64,000 nt of DNA. Source: Chitinophagales bacterium. GTDB lineage: Bacteria > Bacteroidota > Bacteroidia > Chitinophagales > CAIOSU01. The stretch is taken from contig JAGYJT010000006.1 of the NCBI GenBank assembly GCA_018401955.1, forward strand, positions 36,702-100,701, in the 5' to 3' direction. The notes under the pieces were generated by a model. It had not been told where the DNA came from and made no database searches. It worked only from the letters and a program-made list of their open reading frames with translations. Positions 8,750-23,281 of this stretch are shown here, piece by piece; the first letter of the stretch is position 1; each line of letters opens with the position of its first letter. Both the position numbers and the translations under genes were made by a program.

Positions 8750-9928
8750 CTACACCACCGCCACAAACAACCTATTCTCCTTGCCCTGCAGCGCATATAG
8801 CGAGGCGAAGGCGACTTCGGCAATGAGGTACTTTGCGCGGGGAGAGGTGTATTGCTCTATCACTTCTTTAATGTCCAAAGGTTCCAGTTCGGTGTCGTGG
8901 GTGTAGCGTATGTATAGGCGCAGCGTGAAGTCGGTGTGCAGTTGGTGCAGGCCGTGGCCGTTGGCTGCTATGTTTTGGTGCAGCTTTTTGTACTCGTAGC
9001 GGTATTGGTGGCTTAGTGCCGCCACATCGCTTAGCACGGCCGCGCCGGTAGGGTAGCTGCCTGCCCCCTTGCCCACCAGCAGTTGCTTGCCCGAAAATGC
9101 CCCATCTATCTCCACGGCGTTGTATTCGTTGTCGATGTTGATGAGGTTGCTCTCGGTGCCCACAAAGCGGGGCAGCACGTATGCTTGCAGTTGGTTGCCG
9201 TTGCGGGCGGCGTAGGCCACCAGCTTAATGCGCTGACCTTTGAGGGCGGCATGTTCAATATCAAATGCCGAAATGTTTTGTATGCCCAGGTTGAGCACTT
9301 CTTCGGGCTTGAAAATTACGCCAAAGGCATGCACCACCAGCAGCACCAGTTTGTATTTCGGGTCGAAGCCTGCTACATCGAGCCACGGGTCTATTTCGGC
9401 AAAGCCGAGCTCTTGGGCTTGTGCCAGGGCGGTAGCATAGTCCAGCCCGTCCTTATCCATGCGGGTGAGGATGTAGTTGCTGCTGCCATTGATGATGCCG
9501 CTGATGCTGTTAAGCGACTCGGTATCGTAGTACTCCTCCAAGTTGCGGATGATGGGGATGCTGCCCGCGCAAGCACCCTCGTATAACAACGCCACGCTAA
9601 ATTTTTGCTGCAATTGGAAGAGGGTGCTGAAGTGCTCGGCCAGCAGTTTTTTATTGGCTGATACTACGTGCAGCCCGCGCTGTATGGCCGTGCGCACAAT
9701 ATCGAGGGCATCTTCGGCATTGTCTACCAGTTCTACAATGGCCTGTATGTCGTTGCGGCCCAGTATCTCTAGGCTGTCAAACGAGAAATGGTCGAGGGCG
9801 ATTTTGCGCGGTTTGTGGCGGTTTTTTACGCCAATTTTTTGGATGCCGGCCTTAAAGCCGTGGCTTTGCCCAAGGGCATCATAGAGTCCCTGGCCCACGC
9901 ATCCAAATCCGAAAAGTGCTATCTTCAT
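8750..9928 (-). CDS. homoserine dehydrogenase
   Basis: ALFGFGCVGQGLYDAL, VSANKKLLAEH, GIINGSSNYILTRM, EIDPWLDVAGFDPKYKL. Confidence 0.88.
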   Translation of the reverse strand: MKIALFGFGCVGQGLYDALGQSHGFKAGIQKIGVKNRHKPRKIALDHFSFDSLEILGRNDIQAIVELVDNAEDALDIVRTAIQRGLHVVSANKKLLAEHFSTLFQLQQKFSVALLYEGACAGSIPIIRNLEEYYDTESLNSISGIINGSSNYILTRMDKDGLDYATALAQAQELGFAEIDPWLDVAGFDPKYKLVLLVVHAFGVIFKPEEVLNLGIQNISAFDIEHAALKGQRIKLVAYAARNGNQLQAYVLPRFVGTESNLINIDNEYNAVEIDGAFSGKQLLVGKGAGSYPTGAAVLSDVAALSHQYRYEYKKLHQNIAANGHGLHQLHTDFTLRLYIRYTHDTELEPLDIKEVIEQYTSPRAKYLIAEVAFASLYALQGKENRLFVAVV

Positions 9929-10144: not shown

Positions 10145-11206
10145 TCAATCGTATTTCGTACCTCGTAAATCGTAAATCGGCACATCTTGATACTCGGTAA
10201 CAAACTCCTCCAGCAACCCACTCAAGGCTTCAAACTCCAATAAAAAGCCATCATGCCCATATATGGACGTGATGCTTTTGTGGATGCCGTTTTGAACGTT
10301 ATCTGCAATAAACGCTTGCTCGTGGGGCGGAAACAACAAATCGCTGGTAATGCTTACTGCCAACAATGGGGTAGTGATGGTGGCCAATGTTTCGGTTAAC
10401 TCACCGCCTCGTCCTCGGCTTATGTTATGGCTATCCATGGCCTTGCTTAATGCATAGTAGCTAAAGGCATTGAACCGTTTGGCGAGCTTTTCGCCTTGGT
10501 AGCGTTGGTAGCTGCTGGCTTTATAACCTTCAATTTTACCAGCATCGTCAAGTTGCGTTAAGTGGTAGGTGTCGTATGAGCGATAGGAAAGCATGGCAAT
10601 GGAGCGCGCTATTTTAAGGCCGTTTAAGCCCGCTTCGGCATTGCTGTTTTTCCAGGTAGGGTCTTGTTCAATGGCTAGGCGCTGGCTCTCATTAAAAGCA
10701 ACGCCCCACGGTGAGTGCCTGGCGCTTGTGGCAATTACTGCGGCTTGATTAAAAACACCCGGTTCGCGCACGAGCCACTCCAACAATTGGTGCCCGCCCA
10801 ATGAGCCCGCAATGCCCAAGTGTATGTGCTCGATGCCCAAATGCTGGCGCAGCAACACATGTGCCTCCACCATATCCTTTACCGTTACCAAAGGGAAACT
10901 ATGATAGTATGGTTCAAAGGTTTCGGGGTTGATGCTCAGCGGCCCAGTGGTACCATAGCACGAGCCAAGTATGTTGGCGCAAACGATGAAGTACTTTTGC
11001 GGGTCGATGAACTTGCCTTCGCCCACCAAGCCATCCCACCAATCGGCGGCATCGGCATTGGCAGTAAGGGCGTGGCAAATCCATACTACATTGTCTTTAG
11101 CTGGGCTAAGAGTGCCGTAGGTATGGTAAACCACTTCAGGCCGGAGCAGCGTTTCACCGCTCTCCAGCCTAAGGGTATGGGGTATTTTAAACTTGTGTTC
11201 AGCCAT
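10145..11206 (-). CDS. metX: homoserine O-acetyltransferase family (alpha/beta hydrolase)
   Basis: YHTYGTLSPAKDNVVWICHALTANADAADWWDGLVGEGK; GIAGSLGGHQLLEW; adjacent to metY. Confidence 0.88.
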   Translation of the reverse strand: MAEHKFKIPHTLRLESGETLLRPEVVYHTYGTLSPAKDNVVWICHALTANADAADWWDGLVGEGKFIDPQKYFIVCANILGSCYGTTGPLSINPETFEPYYHSFPLVTVKDMVEAHVLLRQHLGIEHIHLGIAGSLGGHQLLEWLVREPGVFNQAAVIATSARHSPWGVAFNESQRLAIEQDPTWKNSNAEAGLNGLKIARSIAMLSYRSYDTYHLTQLDDAGKIEGYKASSYQRYQGEKLAKRFNAFSYYALSKAMDSHNISRGRGGELTETLATITTPLLAVSITSDLLFPPHEQAFIADNVQNGIHKSITSIYGHDGFLLEFEALSGLLEEFVTEYQDVPIYDLRGTKYD

Positions 11207-11309: not shown

Positions 11310-12647
<1,338 letters not shown>

Positions 12648-12694
12648 TTATTGGTTTTTAAAAGTTGATTTATAATGGTTGAATTGGGTTGAAA

Positions 12695-12731
12695 AAGAAA
12701 AACCCGGCTCGGATAGGCTCCGGCCGGGTTT
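12695..12731 (-). terminator. intrinsic terminator/attenuator between polycysteine leader ORF and metY
   Basis: Minus strand AAACCCGGCCGGAGCCTATCCGAGCCGGGTTTTTC: 9-bp stem plus U-run, ~60 nt upstream of metY start. Confidence 0.85.
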
Positions 12732-12754
12732 AGAATATGCACCACGCTAAACGT

Positions 12755-12811
12755 TTACATACACCAATACCTGTCCGGTTGCCGGGGCGGGCAACAACAA
12801 CAGCACATCAT
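12755..12811 (-). CDS. polycysteine leader peptide MMCCCCCPPRQPDRYWCM upstream of metY
   Basis: ATG ATG TGC TGT TGT TGT TGC ... TGG TGT ATG TAA read on minus strand; enclosed by stem 12815-12824/12759-12767; followed by terminator. Confidence 0.75.
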   Translation of the reverse strand: MMCCCCCPPRQPDRYWCM

Positions 12812-12917
12812 GGTTTGGGTGTATTGGTTCATTGGTAACTTGTTATAGGTTAATGGTTGAATTCAAAATTTAAAATTGAAAATTGCATTGTTCTTGTTTT
12901 GATCCTTGATACTAAAA

Positions 12918-14078
12918 TCAGTACTTCGCCAAGCTAGTATCCACCTCATCGGCGTAGGCCAATATGCCACCTTTGAGGTTGTAAAGGTTATCATAGCCAA
13001 ACTGGGTTTCCAGTAGGCGAACGGCATTGGCGCTACGGGCACCACTGCGGCAATGTATAATTACTTGCTTGCCCTTGGCAATACGCTCTGCATTGGCAGG
13101 CACCGTAGCTAAAGGAATCAATTCGGCACCCAAGTTGGCAAGGTTAGCAATCTCATATTCGTACTCTTCGCGCACGTCAATCAATTGGAAATCGGCACCT
13201 TGGTCTTTTAAGGCTTTCAGTTCGGTTACGGTTATCTCTTTCACGGTATTGTCTTTTTTAGCCTCGGTAGCGGCTGGTTTTTCAATACCACAAAATTGCT
13301 CATAATCAATCAGTTTTTCAATCTTTGGGGTGTTCGGGTCTTTCTTGAATTTGAGTGTGCGGCTCTCAAAGCTCAGCGCATCAAACAAATACAACCGGCC
13401 CACCAAAGGTTCGCCCACGCCAGTAATTACCTTAATCACCTCACTGGCTTGCAAGCTGCCGATAATGCCAGGCAACACGCCCAATACGCCACCTTCGGCA
13501 CAGCTAGGTACAAGGCCCGGTGGCGGCGGGGTAGGGTATAGGTCGCGGTACTGCGGACCAAAAGTGCCATCGGCATATTTGTAATTAAACACGGTTACCT
13601 GCCCATCGAAACGGAAGATAGAAGCATACACGTTGGTTTTGCCTTGTATCACGGCCGCATCGTTTACCAAGTATCGGGTAGGGAAGTTATCCGTACCATC
13701 GGCTACTAAATCATAGTCTTTTAACAGCTCCAATGCGTTGCTGCTATGAAACTGCGTGTTGTAGGTATTGATGGTAATGTATGGATTTAAGGCGCGCAAC
13801 CTATCGGCGGCGGCTTCCACTTTCGGGCGACCTACATCACCAACACCAAACAATACTTGGCGCTGCAAGTTGCTATCGTCAACTTTATCAAAGTCAACTA
13901 TGCCCAAGGTACCCACACCGGCTGCTGCTAGGTAAAGCAATAGTGGACTGCCCAAGCCACCGGTACCTATTACCAGCACTTTGGCTTCTTTCAATTTGCG
14001 CTGCCCCTCCATACCAAATTCTGGTATAATGATGTGGCGGCTATATCGTTCTAGTTCTTGTTTACTGAAATTCGACAT
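12918..14078 (-). CDS. ThiF/MoeB-family E1-like adenylyltransferase with C-terminal rhodanese domain
   Basis: YSRHIIIPEFGMEGQRKLKEAKVLVIGTGGLGSPLLLYL; rhodanese loop IIHCRSGARSANAV. Confidence 0.92.
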   Translation of the reverse strand: MSNFSKQELERYSRHIIIPEFGMEGQRKLKEAKVLVIGTGGLGSPLLLYLAAAGVGTLGIVDFDKVDDSNLQRQVLFGVGDVGRPKVEAAADRLRALNPYITINTYNTQFHSSNALELLKDYDLVADGTDNFPTRYLVNDAAVIQGKTNVYASIFRFDGQVTVFNYKYADGTFGPQYRDLYPTPPPPGLVPSCAEGGVLGVLPGIIGSLQASEVIKVITGVGEPLVGRLYLFDALSFESRTLKFKKDPNTPKIEKLIDYEQFCGIEKPAATEAKKDNTVKEITVTELKALKDQGADFQLIDVREEYEYEIANLANLGAELIPLATVPANAERIAKGKQVIIHCRSGARSANAVRLLETQFGYDNLYNLKGGILAYADEVDTSLAKY

Positions 14079-14157
14079 GCGTCTTAGTTCAAAATTTAAA
14101 ATTCAAAATTCAAAATTGTTTTTTTACCATGGACCATCGACTATGGACCATGGACTA

Positions 14158-14433
14158 TTAGCAGCCTCCCGCAATGGCAGGTACTATGCTTATTACGGTT
14201 CCGCTCTCTACTGCGGTAGCATTGTTATCAAGGTCTTTTATATCGTCTTCGCCTACAAACACCTTGATAAATTGGCGCACCTGTCCGTTATCATCAAATA
14301 GATGGCCTTTTACGCCTGGGTACGTGGTTGTCAATTCGTTCAATGCCTCGCCCACGTTGCCGGAGGTAGCTTGAAAGCTGCTCTGGTTATCGGTAAACTT
14401 ACGTAGCGGTGTAGGTATGATAATTTTTGCCAT
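14158..14433 (-). CDS. MoaD/ThiS-like sulfur carrier protein ending in GGC
   Basis: beta-grasp protein; minus strand ...cct gcc att gcg gga ggc tgc taa = PAIAGGC*. Confidence 0.88.
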   Translation of the reverse strand: MAKIIIPTPLRKFTDNQSSFQATSGNVGEALNELTTTYPGVKGHLFDDNGQVRQFIKVFVGEDDIKDLDNNATAVESGTVISIVPAIAGGC

Positions 14434-14490
14434 GGGGTTTGTTATTGGTTATAGGGTTATTTGTTATTGGTTTATTTGTAATTCGTATTC

Positions 14491-14588
14491 GAACCTTGAT
14501 TTTTTTGATTCCCGTTATTTGAAAAGGATTTTTACATACTATGGTATAATCCTTTTCTAATCCATAAATCCTTTCAAAATCATGGTTC
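14491..14588. repeat. ~98-nt hairpin element, copy 2
   Basis: gaaccttgatttttttgatt...gaaaaggatttttacatactatggtataatccttttc...aatcatggttc. Confidence 0.8.
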
Positions 14589-14591
14589 AAA

Positions 14592-15068
14592 CTATTGGTT
14601 AAAGTTCGACAGCAACGCATCCACGTCAAAAGGGTTGTTTTGGTTAATTACCTTTTCCTCCTCAAAGCGACCTTGATCATTCAGTTTCCAAGAAAGTACC
14701 GCCGCCGTTTTTGCTTTTTTTACTGATACAATAATGTACGAGAAGTAAGGCAATGCTTGGCGCAAATCGTGCTCGCTCGGTATGGCTGCGTGCTCTGGGT
14801 GGCTGTGGTACACGCCCAGCAGTGTTAGGCCATTTTCATCAGCATACTGCTCGGCTTTCATGTAATCAATTGATGAAATTTCAAACCTTCGTTCACGGTT
14901 TTCCTCTTTGGTATTTACTACTGGTATTGCTTCAGTAACAATTCGCTTATCATCATCACTGCCATAAAAAAAACCGCAGCACTCGTGAGGGTAAGTGCTC
15001 TCAGCATCTTTAATAATCACTTTTCGTGCATCCTCAGTAAGTATCAGTTCACTCATCTTTTGGTCCAT
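14592..15068 (-). CDS. JAMM/Mov34 M67 family metallopeptidase
   Basis: PHECCGFFYG and HSHPEHAAIPSEHD JAMM motif. Confidence 0.9.
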   Translation of the reverse strand: MDQKMSELILTEDARKVIIKDAESTYPHECCGFFYGSDDDKRIVTEAIPVVNTKEENRERRFEISSIDYMKAEQYADENGLTLLGVYHSHPEHAAIPSEHDLRQALPYFSYIIVSVKKAKTAAVLSWKLNDQGRFEEEKVINQNNPFDVDALLSNFNQ

Positions 15069-15079
15069 TGTTTTTGTAA

Positions 15080-15178
15080 GAACCTTGATTTTGCTTGATT
15101 CTCTTGATTTGAAAAGGATTTTTTACATACTTCGGTAAAATCCTTTTCTAATCTGTTAATCCTTTTGAATCATGGTTC
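15080..15178. repeat. ~98-nt hairpin element, copy 3
   Basis: gaaccttgattttgcttgatt...gaaaaggattttttacatacttcggtaaaatccttttc...aatcatggttc. Confidence 0.8.
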
Positions 15179-15186
15179 AGACCTTA

Positions 15187-16110
15187 TTAAATTGACAACT
15201 CCGGATAATTGCTGCCGTGGTCAGGGAAAACCGTAACTACTACACCGCTATCCAATTCGTTGGCTACCCTTATGGCACCAGCCAAGTTTGCCGCCGATGA
15301 TGGGCTTAACAGCAATCCATCTTTTTTAGCCACTTCTTTTATCAAGGCATAAGCCTCTTCGGTGCTCACCTCTAGGTTTCTGTCAGCTAGCGTGGGGTCA
15401 TATATCTTCGGCACTTTGGCAGTCTCCAAGTGTTTCCAACCTTCTAGGGCATGCATGGCAAAATCAGGCTGCAAAGATATTACCTCAATGTTCGAGTCAA
15501 TTTCTTTCAATCTGCGTGAAGTACCCGTAAAAGTACCTGAGGTGCCCAGCCCTGCAACAAAGTGCGTTATTTTGCCACGGGTTTGGTCAAATATTTCACG
15601 GCCAGTGCCGTAGTAGTGTGCCTTCCAGTTGTGCTCGTTGCTATATTGGTCGGCATAATAATACTGGTCTGGGTTGTTTTGGTATAGTTCCAATGCATAC
15701 TCTTGTGCACCATCGGTGCCTTCAAATCGACTGGTTTCAATAATGTTTACGCCATGTGCTTTAAGGGCGTTTTTCTTTTGGCTGCTGGCATTAGCTGGCA
15801 GAGCTAGGGTAACTGGTATGCCCAACGCCGCTCCAATAGCGCCATAAGCCACGCCGGTGTTACCACTGCTGGCATCCAATAAATGGATGTGCTCGTCTAG
15901 TTTACCTGCTGCTACCGCCTCTTTAATAATATTGTAAGCGGCACGCGCCTTAACGCTGCTGCCAATTTGGTACCACTCTAGCTTGGCATAAATGGTTACA
16001 CCAGGTTTGTTAAAAGTTCCGTTCAACGGGAACAGGGGGGTGTTCCCGATGAACGGTTCCAATGAAAAAACCCTATTTAGTAAGCTCGATTTCGATTCTT
16101 TGATGAGCAT
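15187..16110 (-). CDS. cysteine synthase family PLP enzyme (CysM/CysK-like)
   Basis: GNTPLFPL, QIGSSVKARAAYNII, LLDASSGNTGVAYGAIGAALGIP, GLGTSGTFTGTSRRLKE. Confidence 0.88.
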   Translation of the reverse strand: MLIKESKSSLLNRVFSLEPFIGNTPLFPLNGTFNKPGVTIYAKLEWYQIGSSVKARAAYNIIKEAVAAGKLDEHIHLLDASSGNTGVAYGAIGAALGIPVTLALPANASSQKKNALKAHGVNIIETSRFEGTDGAQEYALELYQNNPDQYYYADQYSNEHNWKAHYYGTGREIFDQTRGKITHFVAGLGTSGTFTGTSRRLKEIDSNIEVISLQPDFAMHALEGWKHLETAKVPKIYDPTLADRNLEVSTEEAYALIKEVAKKDGLLLSPSSAANLAGAIRVANELDSGVVVTVFPDHGSNYPELSI

Positions 16111-16215
16111 GTGTTTTTGATTTTCGATTTACGAGGTACGATTTACGATTGTGTACCCTGTTAACTCTTTTACTTTTCAATTCATTCGCACCTTGTGCTT
16201 CTTTTTTTTTGATTT

Positions 16216-16265
16216 CCGGTATTCGGGCCCTGTATTCTTTCGAACCAGCAGGGCCCGAATACCGG
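16216..16265. repeat. perfect 17-bp inverted repeat CCGGTATTCGGGCCCTG-N16-CAGGGCCCGAATACCGG
   Basis: Arms 16216-16232 and 16249-16265 read directly. Confidence 0.9.
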
Positions 16266-16361
16266 TCAATCATGACAATTATTGACAAACCATTATTTCA
16301 AATGACAGATATGAGATGAGAGATGAAAAATATTTTTGCTGACACACTCACCTCACTGTCG

Positions 16362-17030
16362 TTAACTTAGTTCTTTTTTTGAGAGGTAGAAATCTACTTT
16401 CTCGTAAGTAGCATTCGCAAGGCGCTCTTCCACTTCTACCAAGGTTTTTGGTGGCGGCACAATTACTTTATCACCTGGGCGCCAGTTGGCTGGTAGAGCA
16501 ACGCTGTGCTTATCGGCCGTTTGTAATGCCTCTATAACACGTTTAATCTCGTCAAGGTTGCGGCCAATATTCAATGGGTAATAAATTATAGCACGGATAA
16601 CGTTTTTTGGGTCGATAACAAACACGGCACGTACGGTAGCGGTTTGGCTTTCGCCTGGATGAATCAATCCGTATAATTGCGCCACTTTGGTATCCAAATC
16701 GGCCACAATCGGGAAATCAAGGTATACACCTGTTTTCTCCCTAACGTTTTGTACCCAAGCTACGTGGCTATGAATGCTATCAATGCTCACGCCAATCAAA
16801 TTGGTATTGCGGGCGGCAAAAAACTCCTTTTCGCGGGCAAACTCAATCAGCTCGGTGGTACATACAGGGGTAAAGTCAGCAGGGTGAGAAAACAGGATGG
16901 TATACTTATCCTTCTTGAAATCGTAGAAGTTTAAGCTGCCCACGGTGGTAACGGCAGTAAAGTTCGGGGCGGCATCGCCAATGCGTGGGATGCCGTTTTG
17001 TACTACTGGGTTTTCGGTTGCTGTTGACAT
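16362..17030 (-). CDS. peroxiredoxin, 1-Cys/Prx6-like
   Basis: ILFSHPADFTPVCTTELIEFA; WRPGDKVIVPPP C-terminal region. Confidence 0.92.
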   Translation of the reverse strand: MSTATENPVVQNGIPRIGDAAPNFTAVTTVGSLNFYDFKKDKYTILFSHPADFTPVCTTELIEFAREKEFFAARNTNLIGVSIDSIHSHVAWVQNVREKTGVYLDFPIVADLDTKVAQLYGLIHPGESQTATVRAVFVIDPKNVIRAIIYYPLNIGRNLDEIKRVIEALQTADKHSVALPANWRPGDKVIVPPPKTLVEVEERLANATYEKVDFYLSKKELS

Positions 17031-17092
17031 GGTATTTTGTTTTTTACTGGCTATTGATGGCCTCGTTTCTTGTTTCGATAATGTTGTAAATG

Positions 17093-17125
17093 AAAAAAGC
17101 CCTCCCGCTTTGGCGGAAGGGCTTT
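17093..17125 (-). terminator. intrinsic terminator/attenuator between polycysteine leader ORF and peroxiredoxin
   Basis: Minus strand AAAGCCCTTCCGCCAAAGCGGGAGGGCTTTTTTC: ~13-bp stem plus U-run, ~63 nt upstream of gene start. Confidence 0.88.
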
Positions 17126-17167
17126 GTATAGCTTTTAGTGTTTGGTTGTTGTCTTATCTATCCAATA

Positions 17168-17233
17168 TTACCTACACAAATACAATGCACCCTGTCCGCC
17201 AGAGGCGAAACAACAGCAGCAACAACACATCAT
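17168..17233 (-). CDS. polycysteine leader peptide MMCCCCCCFASGGQGALYLCR upstream of peroxiredoxin (alternative start at 17242 gives MNNMMCCCCCC...)
   Basis: ATG ATG TGT TGT TGC TGC TGT TGT TTC ... TTG TGT AGG TAA read on minus strand; enclosed by perfect 9-bp stem 17254-17262/17174-17182; followed by terminator. Confidence 0.78.
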   Translation of the reverse strand: MMCCCCCCFASGGQGALYLCR

Positions 17234-17280
17234 GTTGTTCATCGCTTGGGTGATATTTGTGTGAGTATTCATTTCGGTTG

Positions 17281-17311
17281 CTAATCTATGACATAATAAC
17301 CCAATTGTCAA
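17281..17311 (-). promoter_or_regulatory. possible Bacteroidota-type promoter for the peroxiredoxin leader
   Basis: Minus strand TTG-N20-TAGATTAG, one mismatch from the TTG...TAnnTTTG pattern, just upstream of the leader stem. Confidence 0.35.
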
Positions 17312-17386
17312 TCTTTGGTTCAATTAGTTCTGTTAAATAATTTAGGTAAAACAGTGTTAGGTGTTGATAATCAACGAGAAAAATTA

Positions 17387-17803
17387 TTAAAAATTAGCGC
17401 CGCTAAATATACTCCATATAATAATGCCTATTAAAGCAAGCCCAATAGCCAACGGCACCCATATTTTACGCTTGGGCATACTTTCGTGGCCAGGAATGTA
17501 TTGGTCGTGTAGATATTTCCCCATAACCCACGATGTGGCTAAATTGATTGGGATGCCTACACCTCTGGGTATGTCAATTACAAATTGAAGCGCAACTAAT
17601 GCTACCATAAATGCAATGCTGCCTAATAATACTTTAATAGCAATATCGTTTTTACCGACTCTATTAAGGTTTTGATAAGCCATTATACCTCCAAAAATGG
17701 TGGAGAAAAAGAAGGTAAAACCCGCCACCGCACTACTGGAGTATATTTCTGGTGCTGGGGTTTCATCTATAGGTGCATCAAGTATAGTGTTGTGCTGTTC
17801 CAT
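17387..17803 (-). CDS. hypothetical membrane protein
   Basis: 138-aa ORF with several TM helices. Confidence 0.6.
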   Translation of the reverse strand: MEQHNTILDAPIDETPAPEIYSSSAVAGFTFFFSTIFGGIMAYQNLNRVGKNDIAIKVLLGSIAFMVALVALQFVIDIPRGVGIPINLATSWVMGKYLHDQYIPGHESMPKRKIWVPLAIGLALIGIIIWSIFSGANF

Positions 17804-17869
17804 GGTAGCCTTTTGGGCAAAGATATACCATTTGCCTTTTAGTTGTAATGTGTAAGCAAAGCAAAAGTA

Positions 17870-19714
17870 TTAATATACCAGCACCTTTTTACGAGAAATT
17901 GCTTTGCCGTTGATAGTTGTTAGTAGATACATGCCAGTACCTGTGCTAATTGGCAAGGTTAGCGTGTTACATACATTGCAACTGGCAACTACTTTGCCTG
18001 TAATATCGGTAACCGTTACATCAGTATGAGTTGAGAGGTTAATGGCGTTCCCTGCTTTTACTGGGTTAGGATAGAAGCTTACCTCATTGGTAGGTTCCAT
18101 AACTTCATTTAAGCCAACATACAAAGCACCTTTGTATCGGTGGCTCGAAAACCAGAACCAGTCGGGGTTATTGGTTACAAAGGCAACCAATTCCTGTGTT
18201 TGAAATTGTTGATAGGTTAGCGTTCTGCTCCAAACATCCGTTACTCCATCAATCCAAAGGATATCGGTATAATTATTAGAGTCTAATGATAGGGTTACAG
18301 CACTAGAATCTGGCGAGAAGCTGATATTTATGTAAGGCCTTAAATCATCAAACGGTAGTTGATTGTCAAAATATGGATAAAAACGATAGGTTAGGAACGA
18401 GTAATCTTGATTGATGGCAAACACCATGGTGTTGCTGTTATCCCAAACCCCCAACTTGGGCACACCATTGTCATTTGACAAATCAAAATTAGTGGAACCG
18501 ATGTTGCCAAAAGAGAGGGCGTTGTTAATTTCTGATATTGAGCTAGCATAGCGGTTTTGTAGCATAACCCCGCCGTTACCCATGGCAGTACTTTGCCCAA
18601 GCACATCATATAATCCCTTGCGAGTGGTTCTGATTGAATCGCCTGAAGATTGTATAAATACCTTGTAGCCGGTGTTAGGTTTTGCCCTACAGCCTCCATT
18701 ATCCCATAATGATTTTACCAAGGTGTCTTTATTGGCATACAAGTATTGAAGGTCGTGGGCTGTATTTACCCAAACCGAATCATCGGATTGATGGCCCAAA
18801 TGATTTGATTTGCTCAATACTTGCACGCTACTGGTTACCCATTTGGTACCATTAAAAGTTGCCGTAATTTCAAATTCTGAATCGGTATTACGGTTAAATA
18901 TGCCAATTTTCACAGTGTCTACTGCTGTTTGTATGGCTGCAATAGAATTTGGGTGGTAAAAATCGATAATATTATTGTCAAACGTATCTAGTGTGGTGTA
19001 GCTGCAAGTAGATTGGGGTGTGCCAGCCGGGCTTATGCCCCAAGCAGGGTCTGCAGCACTCCAATAAAAATTTGTATTGTGATTAGCTGATACCCAGTTA
19101 ACGGTAGGGTACGTAACGCCACCAGTTTGTTGGCTTCCAAGGAATGCATATCCCAGGTTGTTGGGCATTACATAAAACTCGTGTGGGTTGCCTATGCCAA
19201 AGGTATCAATTACCTCAAAATTTCTATCGCATACATAACCAACTACAGGTTTAATGCTGTAGTCTCGTATTTCGGCCCAAGTAAAAAGTTCTTCCTCTGG
19301 CCAATATCTAAAATTCCAAATAGGAAAATTTGACCCATCGGGTACTAAACGAAACGCAGCGGGTATCTTTTCATATACATCATATAGTACCATCATTTGC
19401 TCAAGTACAAATGGAGAGCTAGCAGCCCAAAGGCCATACCTTACTTTGGTTTGTGCTATCGCCTGGTCGTTATAGTTTATTTGAAACGGAAATATAACAC
19501 TGTTAGAGTCTTCTACAAGCGGTGCATAGATAGTTTGGGCATAAACTTGCGCATTTAAGCATACTGCTATCACTAGCATTATAACGTACTTGACGCAATT
19601 ATCTATAAAACTATTTTTGGCGCAAGGCGATGAGAAAATGCTTAGGCTAGTTGATAATGTTACATACGCTTTTGCCAAAGGGTTTTGGTACAAAAGCAAC
19701 ATTTGTTTTCCCAT
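17870..19714 (-). CDS. secreted protein with C-terminal T9SS type A sorting domain
   Basis: C-terminus FYPNPVKAGNAINLSTHTDVTVTDITGKVV...MYLLTTINGKAISRKKVLVY. Confidence 0.75.
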   Translation of the reverse strand: MGKQMLLLYQNPLAKAYVTLSTSLSIFSSPCAKNSFIDNCVKYVIMLVIAVCLNAQVYAQTIYAPLVEDSNSVIFPFQINYNDQAIAQTKVRYGLWAASSPFVLEQMMVLYDVYEKIPAAFRLVPDGSNFPIWNFRYWPEEELFTWAEIRDYSIKPVVGYVCDRNFEVIDTFGIGNPHEFYVMPNNLGYAFLGSQQTGGVTYPTVNWVSANHNTNFYWSAADPAWGISPAGTPQSTCSYTTLDTFDNNIIDFYHPNSIAAIQTAVDTVKIGIFNRNTDSEFEITATFNGTKWVTSSVQVLSKSNHLGHQSDDSVWVNTAHDLQYLYANKDTLVKSLWDNGGCRAKPNTGYKVFIQSSGDSIRTTRKGLYDVLGQSTAMGNGGVMLQNRYASSISEINNALSFGNIGSTNFDLSNDNGVPKLGVWDNSNTMVFAINQDYSFLTYRFYPYFDNQLPFDDLRPYINISFSPDSSAVTLSLDSNNYTDILWIDGVTDVWSRTLTYQQFQTQELVAFVTNNPDWFWFSSHRYKGALYVGLNEVMEPTNEVSFYPNPVKAGNAINLSTHTDVTVTDITGKVVASCNVCNTLTLPISTGTGMYLLTTINGKAISRKKVLVY

Positions 19715-19950
19715 AGTAGATAATAATGAGTCAAAGGTACGCAGCCCAAGGAAATATGGCCTGAAAACTCATTAAATTTTGATTAAAATAACCAGGGTTA
19801 ACTGTCTGAAATTCAGTAATTTAGGTTGCAGTTTGTGCTTTAAAATAGACAGTCATAACGTATCAAAATAATCAGCATAATCATATTGGTGATTTGCAAT
19901 GCGGTATGATTGTATAAAATAGCCGTTGCATAGCTATTAGTTAAACGGTG

Positions 19951-20547
19951 CTACTGGTCTCTTTGTACCCAACCTTCATAAATGCCATCCATAGTCTCAG
20001 TAGATAGTTGTGGAGCATGGTAAAGCCCTGTTTCAATACGTTGGCGCATTACCTCAAACACACTCACAGCACATGCTACCGAAATATTGAGGCTCTGCAC
20101 CATGCCCTGCATCGGGATAATGAAATTGCCATCGGCATACTCCAATATTTCAGCTGATAAGCCTAAACGCTCGTTGCCAAACAACAAAGCTACCGAGCCG
20201 GTTAAGTTTAGGTTATATAAACTAACGGCATCTTGGCTTAGGTGGGTAGCATAGACCTTATCGTACTTAGCCTTTACGGCGGTCATACAATCGGCAATGT
20301 TTTCAAAAGTATGTAGGTCAACCCACTTTTTTGCGCCAGCAGAGCTACGTTTACCCAATTTAGTAATGGGCGGGGTAAGGGTGTTAACCACATATACCTC
20401 CATAATACCCACGGCATCGCAACTGCGCATTACAGCCGATAGGTTGTGCGGGTCGTGAACGTCTTCGAGCACAACGGTAACATTTGGTTGCCGTTGCGAC
20501 AAAACTTTCCGCATTTTTTGTTGTCTTATACTTAGTGTATCATCCAT
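19951..20547 (-). CDS. TrmH/SpoU family RNA methyltransferase
   Basis: VVLEDVHDPHNLSAVMRSCDAVG, LLFGNERLGLS, IPMQGMVQSLNISVACAV. Confidence 0.9.
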   Translation of the reverse strand: MDDTLSIRQQKMRKVLSQRQPNVTVVLEDVHDPHNLSAVMRSCDAVGIMEVYVVNTLTPPITKLGKRSSAGAKKWVDLHTFENIADCMTAVKAKYDKVYATHLSQDAVSLYNLNLTGSVALLFGNERLGLSAEILEYADGNFIIPMQGMVQSLNISVACAVSVFEVMRQRIETGLYHAPQLSTETMDGIYEGWVQRDQ

Positions 20548-20596
20548 TCGTTTGTAAAACTAAACAGAATGGTATCTTTATAAAAACTTTTCCACT

Positions 20597-23281
20597 ATGT
20601 TACGTAAGCTTCTATTAGGCTTTTTAATTTTTATCGTGTTGTTGGTAGGTGCTTTAGCCGCAGTGCCGTTTATTTTTAAGGACCAATTGCTGGCGTTTGC
20701 CAAAACCCAGATAAACACATATCTCACCGCCACGGTCGATTTTGATGAGTTTGGTGTCTCGGTTTTCAAAGATTTTCCTAACATCAGTCTCACCCTAGGT
20801 GATGTATCGGTAATTAACGGCGCCCCTTTTGAGGGCGATACCTTAGCGGGTATAAAAGACGTTACTGTTAGCCTCGACATAATGAGCGTTATCAAAGGCG
20901 ACCAATATGTTATCCGTAACGTGGCGCTTACCCAACCGCGCATAAAGGTTAAGGTGTTAAAAGACGGCACGGCCAACTATGACATAATGAAACCTAGCGA
21001 TGCGGCTGATACCACTAGCGGCGGTGCTACCCCGGCCATCGAAATAAATGGTTACAGCATTACCAAAGGCTATATTTTATATGACGATAAGGCAGGGGAT
21101 ATGTATGCGGAGATTGTTGACCTAGACCATAAGGGTAGCGGCGATTTTGCACAAGATATTGTTGACCTTTCAACCACTACCAGCATTAAAGCCCTAACCG
21201 TGAAGACCGGTGGTGTGGCCTACCTGAGCAAAGCCGAACTGGAAGCAAAGCTTGACCTGAACCTTGATTTGCCGAACAGCAAATATACTTTTAAAGAAAA
21301 CACCGTAAGGCTTAACCAATTGGAGCTGGCCTTCAACGGCTGGTTGCAATTGCTTGCAAATGAGGCTATGGATTTGGATGTGAGCTTTGATGCCAAGAAA
21401 ACAGAGTTTAAGAACATCCTTTCGCTGTTGCCGGCCATATATGCCAAAGATTTTGAGCAAGTGCAAACCAGCGGTAGCTTGGTGCTGCGTGGCTATGCCA
21501 AAGGCAAATTGGAAGGTGAAAGCTATCCAGCCTTTGCCTTGGAATTGGGTGTAGACAATGCCAGTTTCAAATACCCAGATTTGCCTGTTGGGGTAAGTGC
21601 TATAAACATTGATGCCAGCGTAAAATCGCCGGGCGGTAGTTTGGATAGAACGGTAGTTGATGTGCCAAAGTTTGATTTTGTAGCAGGTACCGATCCGTTT
21701 AAAATGAAGATAAATGTGCGTACCCCAATTTCAGACCCTAATATTGATGCTAGCCTAAAGGGCAAAATCAATTTGGATAACGTAAAGAACTTTTACCCAA
21801 TGGCGCAGGGCGAAAGCCTATCTGGCCTATTGGATATGGATGTAACGGCTGAGGGTAGGCTTAGTGCCATTGAGGCAGAGAAGTATCAAAACTTTGATGC
21901 CCAGGGTAGTATTGCCATTACCAATTTGAGGTATGCTAGCCCTGACGTGCCTAAGCCCGTATCGGTTGATGCACTTAACATGACCTTTACGCCGCAAGTG
22001 GTAACCTTGGATAAGTTGGTTGCTAAAATTGGCAGAAGTGATATTGATGCGGTTGGCAGGCTCGATAATTTACTAAATTACCTATTTGCCGGTGAGGTGC
22101 TTAAAGGTAGCCTAACCTTAAACTCGAAGTTGTTGGATTTGAACGAGTTTATGACCGAGGAAACTACTACCACAACCACCACTACCACCGACGGTGACGG
22201 CAGCACCAGCACTACTATGGAAACTACCGGTGCCGATGTGCCCGATGATTTAGATTTTACCCTAAACGCAACAATGGCCAGGGTTATTTATGATAACATC
22301 GAGATTAAGGGTGCTAGTGCCAAATTTACGGTAAAGAACGAAACGGTAACCATTACTGATTTGAAAGCCAATATTTTGGATGGGGCTCTGGCTCTTGATG
22401 GTACTTACTCCACTTACCAGACCGAAAGGCCAGCGCTTGACTTCAAGTTTAAATTTATGAACGTTGATGTGCAGCAGGCGTTCAAAACCTTCAATTCGGT
22501 GCAGCAAATTATGCCTATTGCCGACCAGATAAGTGGCAAGTTTAGTACCCAGTTTGATATGAAGGGCTTTTTGGGCGACGATTTATCGCCTGACTTAAAT
22601 ACCTTATTGGGCGAGGGTACTGTTGAGTTGACCAATGCAAAGCTTACTGGTAGTGATGTACTGAATAATTTGGCGGATAAATTTAAGTTGCCACAATTAA
22701 AGTCGATTGATATACCTAAGTCTTGGACCATTGTGAAACTGGTAAATGGTAAGATTTTTGTTGAGCCGTTTGACTTTAAGTACCAAGATATAGCCATGAC
22801 TATTGCCGGTTCGCACAGCCTGTTAAACGTGATGGACTACGGTGTACTGATGGATGTGCCGAGCAACAAAATGGGCCCAGCCAAAGGTATGGTTGATGGT
22901 TTATTAGCCCAATCGCCAATACCGGGTATTACACCAACCTCGTTGCCAGATATGTTGCGCTTTAAGGTTGGTATAACGGGTGATATGGCGAAACCAAAGA
23001 TTGATGTAAAGCTACTAGGCTCCGGCGGTTCTACCAGTCCGGTTAAAGATTTGGTAAACGACCAGGTGGATAAGGTTAAGGAAGAGTTTGACAAACAAAA
23101 GGACGAGGCCATTAAACAAGCAGAGGATGCCAAGCGTAAAGCTGAAGAAGAAGCCCAAAGGCAGCTTGATGAGGCTAAGCGCAAAGCCGACGAAGCTAAA
23201 AAGAAAGCCGAAGAAGAGGCTAAAAAGAAGGCTAAGGAAGAGGCTGATAAGCTAAAAGATAAGATTAAGACGCCTTGGTAA
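20597..23281 (+). CDS. AsmA-like protein with Lys/Glu/Ala-rich C-terminal tail
   Basis: N-terminal TM then AsmA-like repeats; tail KQAEDAKRKAEEEAQRQLDEAKRKADEAKKKAEEE. Confidence 0.8.
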   Translation: MLRKLLLGFLIFIVLLVGALAAVPFIFKDQLLAFAKTQINTYLTATVDFDEFGVSVFKDFPNISLTLGDVSVINGAPFEGDTLAGIKDVTVSLDIMSVIKGDQYVIRNVALTQPRIKVKVLKDGTANYDIMKPSDAADTTSGGATPAIEINGYSITKGYILYDDKAGDMYAEIVDLDHKGSGDFAQDIVDLSTTTSIKALTVKTGGVAYLSKAELEAKLDLNLDLPNSKYTFKENTVRLNQLELAFNGWLQLLANEAMDLDVSFDAKKTEFKNILSLLPAIYAKDFEQVQTSGSLVLRGYAKGKLEGESYPAFALELGVDNASFKYPDLPVGVSAINIDASVKSPGGSLDRTVVDVPKFDFVAGTDPFKMKINVRTPISDPNIDASLKGKINLDNVKNFYPMAQGESLSGLLDMDVTAEGRLSAIEAEKYQNFDAQGSIAITNLRYASPDVPKPVSVDALNMTFTPQVVTLDKLVAKIGRSDIDAVGRLDNLLNYLFAGEVLKGSLTLNSKLLDLNEFMTEETTTTTTTTTDGDGSTSTTMETTGADVPDDLDFTLNATMARVIYDNIEIKGASAKFTVKNETVTITDLKANILDGALALDGTYSTYQTERPALDFKFKFMNVDVQQAFKTFNSVQQIMPIADQISGKFSTQFDMKGFLGDDLSPDLNTLLGEGTVELTNAKLTGSDVLNNLADKFKLPQLKSIDIPKSWTIVKLVNGKIFVEPFDFKYQDIAMTIAGSHSLLNVMDYGVLMDVPSNKMGPAKGMVDGLLAQSPIPGITPTSLPDMLRFKVGITGDMAKPKIDVKLLGSGGSTSPVKDLVNDQVDKVKEEFDKQKDEAIKQAEDAKRKAEEEAQRQLDEAKRKADEAKKKAEEEAKKKAKEEADKLKDKIKTPW

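Follow-up and report, generated by a model that had tools for sequence, protein, structure and literature searches.

The cysteine and methionine operon that begins with a peroxiredoxin gene in a Chitinophagales bacterium of the Bacteroidota is in all likelihood controlled by a ribosome-mediated transcription attenuator sensing charged tRNA-Cys, as judged from comparative analysis and folding models. The element lies on the minus strand of the window (the whole 64,000-nucleotide stretch of DNA that was analyzed) and combines several features of attenuators: a run of cognate codons, an operon of the corresponding pathway, an intrinsic terminator, and an antiterminator that shares the 5' arm of the terminator. 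Attenuators of this kind are classical; what appears to be new is this particular member, how widely it occurs in the phylum, the range of sulfur operons that carry it, and its frequent occurrence in tandem.

As read from the sequence, the leader ORF, MNTHTNITQAMNNMMCCCCCCFASGGQGALYLCR, comprises 34 codons plus a stop (17168-17272, minus strand) and is kept in three congeneric genomes. Its six consecutive Cys codons, TGT TGT TGC TGC TGT TGT (17210-17227, minus strand), the putative regulatory codons, are invariant in the congeners, and a pattern search found this run of six TGY codons to be unique in the 3.49-Mb assembly. The preliminary description had recognized the ORF and its Cys run but began it at an internal ATG (17233-17168). 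The frame is open up to an ATG at 17272, and the start probably lies further upstream than was proposed. A Bacteroidota-type promoter, TTG-N20-TAGATTAG, is predicted from its sequence boxes at 17281-17311 (minus strand), with a -7 box that ends 8 nt 5' of the leader ATG. Boxes of this type scoring at least 8 of 9 stand 5' of 45 of 82 related leaders, against 11% in shuffled sequence. The leader folds at -65.1 kcal/mol compared with -44.9 for dinucleotide shuffles (z -4.6), a value reached by none of 200 shuffles, and the Rfam 15 families gave no match near gathering scores in the region 12000-20600 of the window.

An intrinsic terminator had been placed between the leader and the peroxiredoxin, and one is indeed found upstream of the peroxiredoxin ATG at 17030. 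It consists of a 13-bp stem, the 4-nt loop AAAG, and a T-rich tail (17096-17125, minus strand), with 17121-17112 in its 5' arm serving as segment 3. The 5' strand of the putative antiterminator, segment 2 or GGCGGACAGGG (17190-17200, minus strand), begins 9 nt past the Cys run. The two segments can form GGCGGA-(C)-AGGG paired with CCCTTCCGCC, a helix of 10 bp with one bulge that is identical in four congeners; the TGGCGGA/TCCGCCA complementarity noticed earlier is real and extends further than was claimed. When Cys-tRNA is scarce, the ribosome would stall on the Cys run and leave segment 2 (17200-17190) free to pair with 17121-17112, allowing RNA polymerase to read through into Prx-cysM-mec-cysO-moeZ-metY-metX-hom. 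With ample Cys-tRNA, the ribosome would cover segment 2 and arrive at the stop codon, the terminator would form, and transcription would end.

The small hairpin CGCC-TCT-GGCG reported just past the Cys run is present at 17207-17197 (minus strand), and among congeners its stem is invariant and its loop variable. It may delay formation of the antiterminator. A 9-bp stem that encloses the Cys run also exists as described (ACACAAATA at 17262-17254 with TATTTGTGT at 17182-17174, minus strand), and its 3' arm includes the last Cys codon. Relatives lend this stem no support: the outer pair is gone in all three congeners compared, more pairs are weakened or broken in two of them, and there are no compensatory changes. 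A role as a protector hairpin is thus unsupported among the congeners; the stem may help in the window species but does not appear to be a conserved part of the element.

The genes past the terminator, from the peroxiredoxin to a homoserine dehydrogenase, share one direction. The first encodes a 1-Cys peroxiredoxin (16362-17030, minus strand, as for all genes here; PF00578 and PF10417; NF009668). Next comes a cysM-like cysteine synthase (15187-16110; PF00291) whose best solved relative is cysteine synthase B; its best NCBIfam match, TIGR01138 cysM, is below cut-off, so that the name rests on similarity. A Mec-like JAB-domain protease (14592-15068; PF14464), a CysO-like sulfur carrier of the ThiS/MoaD type (14158-14433; PF02597), and a MoeZ-like ThiF-rhodanese protein (12918-14078; PF00899 and PF00581) follow, and then a metY-like O-acetylhomoserine sulfhydrylase (11310-12635; TIGR01326, above cut-off), a metX-like homoserine O-acetyltransferase (10145-11206; PRK00175 just below and TIGR01392 below cut-off), and the homoserine dehydrogenase (8750-9928; NF004976, above cut-off), which is probably the operon end. 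Gene order and strand suggest co-transcription. The peroxiredoxin, named as the target in the preliminary description, is the first gene, but the controlled unit would be the whole Cys/Met operon rather than the peroxiredoxin alone.

The CysO/CysM/Mec cysteine pathway is known from Mycobacterium tuberculosis, and the middle genes of the operon resemble that gene set. Most CysO/ThiS-like proteins of such operons (window and L161-L240) do not stop at their C-terminal GG but continue for one or a few residues, as in AIAGGC in the window. Because extra residues stand past the GG, these proteins probably need trimming before activation, perhaps by the JAB protease next door. The window genome and four congeners (G000-G004) have no match to NIR_SIR (sulfite/nitrite reductase); a PAPS-reductase-family gene is present nonetheless. 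A leader-terminator pair was not found before that gene in the window genome, and an overview of looser-pattern matches made no further pair evident there.

In a set unbiased with respect to the leader, loci were chosen by CysM alignment alone from one-genome-per-species data, giving 80 named loci, 78 of which have more than 250 nt upstream and are usable. They come from Chitinophagaceae, Saprospiraceae, Flexithrix, Reichenbachiella, Microscilla, and others. The preliminary description had held that homologous upstream regions lacking the ORF, the Cys run, or the terminator would speak against attenuation; 66 of the 78 keep all three, with at least three Cys codons in a short ORF and at least four in 57 loci. 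These 66 loci contain 82 modules, 16 of them having two modules each, and in the window as in the 66 loci the terminator lies 22-63 nt past the leader stop. At L214 and L178 the leader is present, and either the hairpin was overlooked by the finder or the run is down to two Cys. Leaders of different families have a common layout and sequences that cannot be aligned. Because the arrangement recurs across many Bacteroidota, it is very probable, on this comparative evidence, that carriers sense Cys shortage via the ribosome.

Leaders were also found by other routes. A peroxiredoxin-based search recovered two congeners that likewise carry the six-Cys leader and terminator before the peroxiredoxin. 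In two genomes from a different family, the peroxiredoxin gene is preceded by MLNSLKISMNNCCCCMKPYRKGNCVYI and MSNSLKISMYNCCCCMKIYRKE; the remaining peroxiredoxin loci examined are without a polycysteine leader. The third congener with the leader, G004, came from a pattern search (a terminator combined with four Cys codons, run on 399 genomes from the order) that returned many matches and much noise. Twenty stretches were taken from that search for a visible inverted repeat or a known locus, chosen before further genes were seen. Behind the leaders in these stretches are mostly cysM operons, along with sulfite reductase (three cases), Prx then cysH (two), metY (two), and a RimK-like ATP-grasp ligase (one). 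A bare six-Cys pattern across the phylum was almost pure coding noise, with no leader in 29 new loci. In one congener (L091/L162) leader and terminator are kept and the peroxiredoxin is absent between terminator and cysM. At L254, in a genome from a distant family of the phylum, the gene for a CysK-like cysteine synthase follows a five-Cys leader with its terminator. The ATP-grasp ligase, preceded by a seven-Cys leader and terminator (L093:1000-2176), may make a Cys-containing thiol or peptide.

The identity of the downstream genes bears on the suggestion that the polycysteine peptide itself binds copper or zinc or reacts with oxidants, and that this halts or frees the ribosome. Other bacteria are known to have Cys-rich upstream ORFs that act in copper control, which offers a precedent, and the peroxiredoxin that comes first in the window and at L099, L100, and L149 would fit an oxidant signal. 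However, Cys biosynthesis and sulfur assimilation genes overwhelmingly dominate downstream, and no copper or zinc genes stand directly behind the terminators. Outside the genus, moreover, the Cys run alone is kept while the flanking residues and the run length (3-8) vary. Peptide sensing is accordingly improbable.

Support for codon-level sensing comes from the antiterminator, which was proposed from the window alone and is borne out statistically in the 82 modules. In 55 modules, where about four are expected, the post-Cys segment pairs with the terminator 5' arm better (p<0.05) than dinucleotide-shuffled sequence does, and the helix mostly starts 5-24 nt past the Cys run. Terminator arms pair better with their own leaders than when swapped (permutation P=1e-4, a value that is optimistic because the sequences are related). 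The pairs are lineage-specific, including GGCGGA/TCCGCC, GGAAAGG/CCTTTCC, GGTGGAG/CTCCACC, GGTGAGG/CCTCACC, and GCACAAGA/TCTTGTGC, and such differing but matching arms amount, at the sequence level, to covariation between lineages. The ten antiterminator pairs of the window are invariant in its genus and hence uninformative on covariation there.

The switch was modeled on a transcript truncated in the terminator loop, with a ribosome either on the Cys codons or on the stop codon. Modeled sequestration of the terminator 5' arm averages 0.70 for the first ribosome position and 0.13 for the second; the window values are 0.91 and 0.21. A shuffled control was added because shorter RNA pairs less anyway, and the modeled switch size is 0.58 as observed and 0.15 when shuffled. 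In the window, a ribosome at the stop codon barely extends to segment 2. When the complete terminator is included, it dominates equilibrium folding at any ribosome position and little switch is seen, so that the choice must be kinetic and made during transcription. Kinetic switching is usual for attenuators.

Another reading is translational or Rho-type control, in which the leader would govern a downstream ribosome-binding site or Rho access and the hairpin would be incidental. Loci of Fodinibius, which have a Cys run without an intrinsic terminator, speak for such control. Against it, the window and all 66 loci have a T-tract terminator 22-63 nt past the leader stop, with a 5' arm complementary to the segment behind the Cys run, leaving this reading a slim chance, slightly below that of peptide sensing. 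In the five Fodinibius-type loci (Balneolota; L211, L215, L220, L221, and L240) the Cys run ends at the stop codon about 160-180 nt before cysM, and most have a GTTACCG...CGGTAAC-type hairpin past the stop. Their sequences suggest that these leaders likely use a different control mode.

The codon run was also compared with runs of all other residues. Before the terminators, runs of at least four are found for Cys at 54 loci, for Leu in a shadow frame at 50, and for Val, the next residue, at 5. The Cys frame has an in-frame ATG in 78 of the 82 modules, the Leu frame in 15, and the Val frame in 4, and a Leu-frame reading of the repeat was rejected by this test. Chance association of an upstream gene's terminator with a spurious ORF can be dismissed as next to impossible: TGY/RCA codon runs often occur in the phylum as mere coding noise, but the 66 of 78 protein-selected loci, the frame test, and the pairing tests refute it.

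With attenuation by charged tRNA-Cys as the preferred reading, there is a reasonable likelihood that Bacteroidota carry a cysteine "regulon without a regulator" in which tandem attenuators sharpen the response to Cys-tRNA. Its members, each with its own polycysteine attenuator, would be cysM-mec-cysO-moeZ, sulfite reductase/siroheme, Prx-cysH, metY-metX, and cysK. Where two attenuators stand in series before cysM, as at many Saprospiraceae-type loci, termination would be multiplied and the response made sharper. Two complete leader-terminator modules in series precede cysM at L167, L169, L171, L172, L174, L176, L179, and L181, and further at L186, L188, L193, L194, L198, L217, L218, and L225; L149 and L092 likewise have two modules before one operon. 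Tandem modules are mostly in Saprospiraceae-type records, and each module usually has its own antiterminator.

The arrangement resembles the trp/his-type attenuators of Proteobacteria in its leader ORF with a cognate codon run, intrinsic terminator, alternative antiterminator, and biosynthetic operon. It differs in that the amino acid is Cys, the hosts are Bacteroidota, no conserved protector hairpin was found among the congeners compared, and the element is often in tandem in Saprospiraceae-type loci. In mycobacteria, polycysteine ORFs are reported to control a downstream ribosome-binding site or Rho access; Canestrari and colleagues reportedly worked experimentally on polycysteine leaderless short ORFs there in 2020. 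Actinobacteria have cys leaders before Cys/sulfur genes and no conserved terminator hairpins (PMC1262725). The leaders described here share with the mycobacterial and actinobacterial ones the Cys runs before Cys/sulfur genes and the use on several operons per genome, a likeness of layout, but possess intrinsic terminators and antiterminators. The uORFC-8-2 motif before cysS in Rhodobacterales has a two-Cys leader ORF and then an intrinsic terminator (PMC8632094). It is similar to the window in this order of Cys codons and terminator; it differs in having two rather than six Cys codons, in preceding a cysteinyl-tRNA synthetase rather than a Prx/cysM operon, and in its alphaproteobacterial host.

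Within the Bacteroidota, the accessible parts of two transcriptome reports propose leader-peptide attenuation in general terms (PMC9723704, PMC7366714). For Flavobacterium psychrophilum, the proposed leader-peptide attenuators precede amino-acid operons, and the main text names no cysteine leader (PMC9723704). A published Bacteroidota cysteine attenuator was not found in the searchable full texts, which were the main texts of mostly open-access papers.

The proposed attenuator provides a concrete, testable answer to how numerous environmental Bacteroidota could regulate cysteine synthesis, and it links a CysO/CysM/Mec-type pathway to a codon-level sensor. Cultured carriers, among them Flexithrix dorotheae, Reichenbachiella agariperforans and faecimaris, Puia dinghuensis, Paraflavitalea, and Pseudoflavitalea, make the proposal testable, and studies of attenuation beyond the model phyla can draw on dozens of naturally occurring versions, some of them in tandem.
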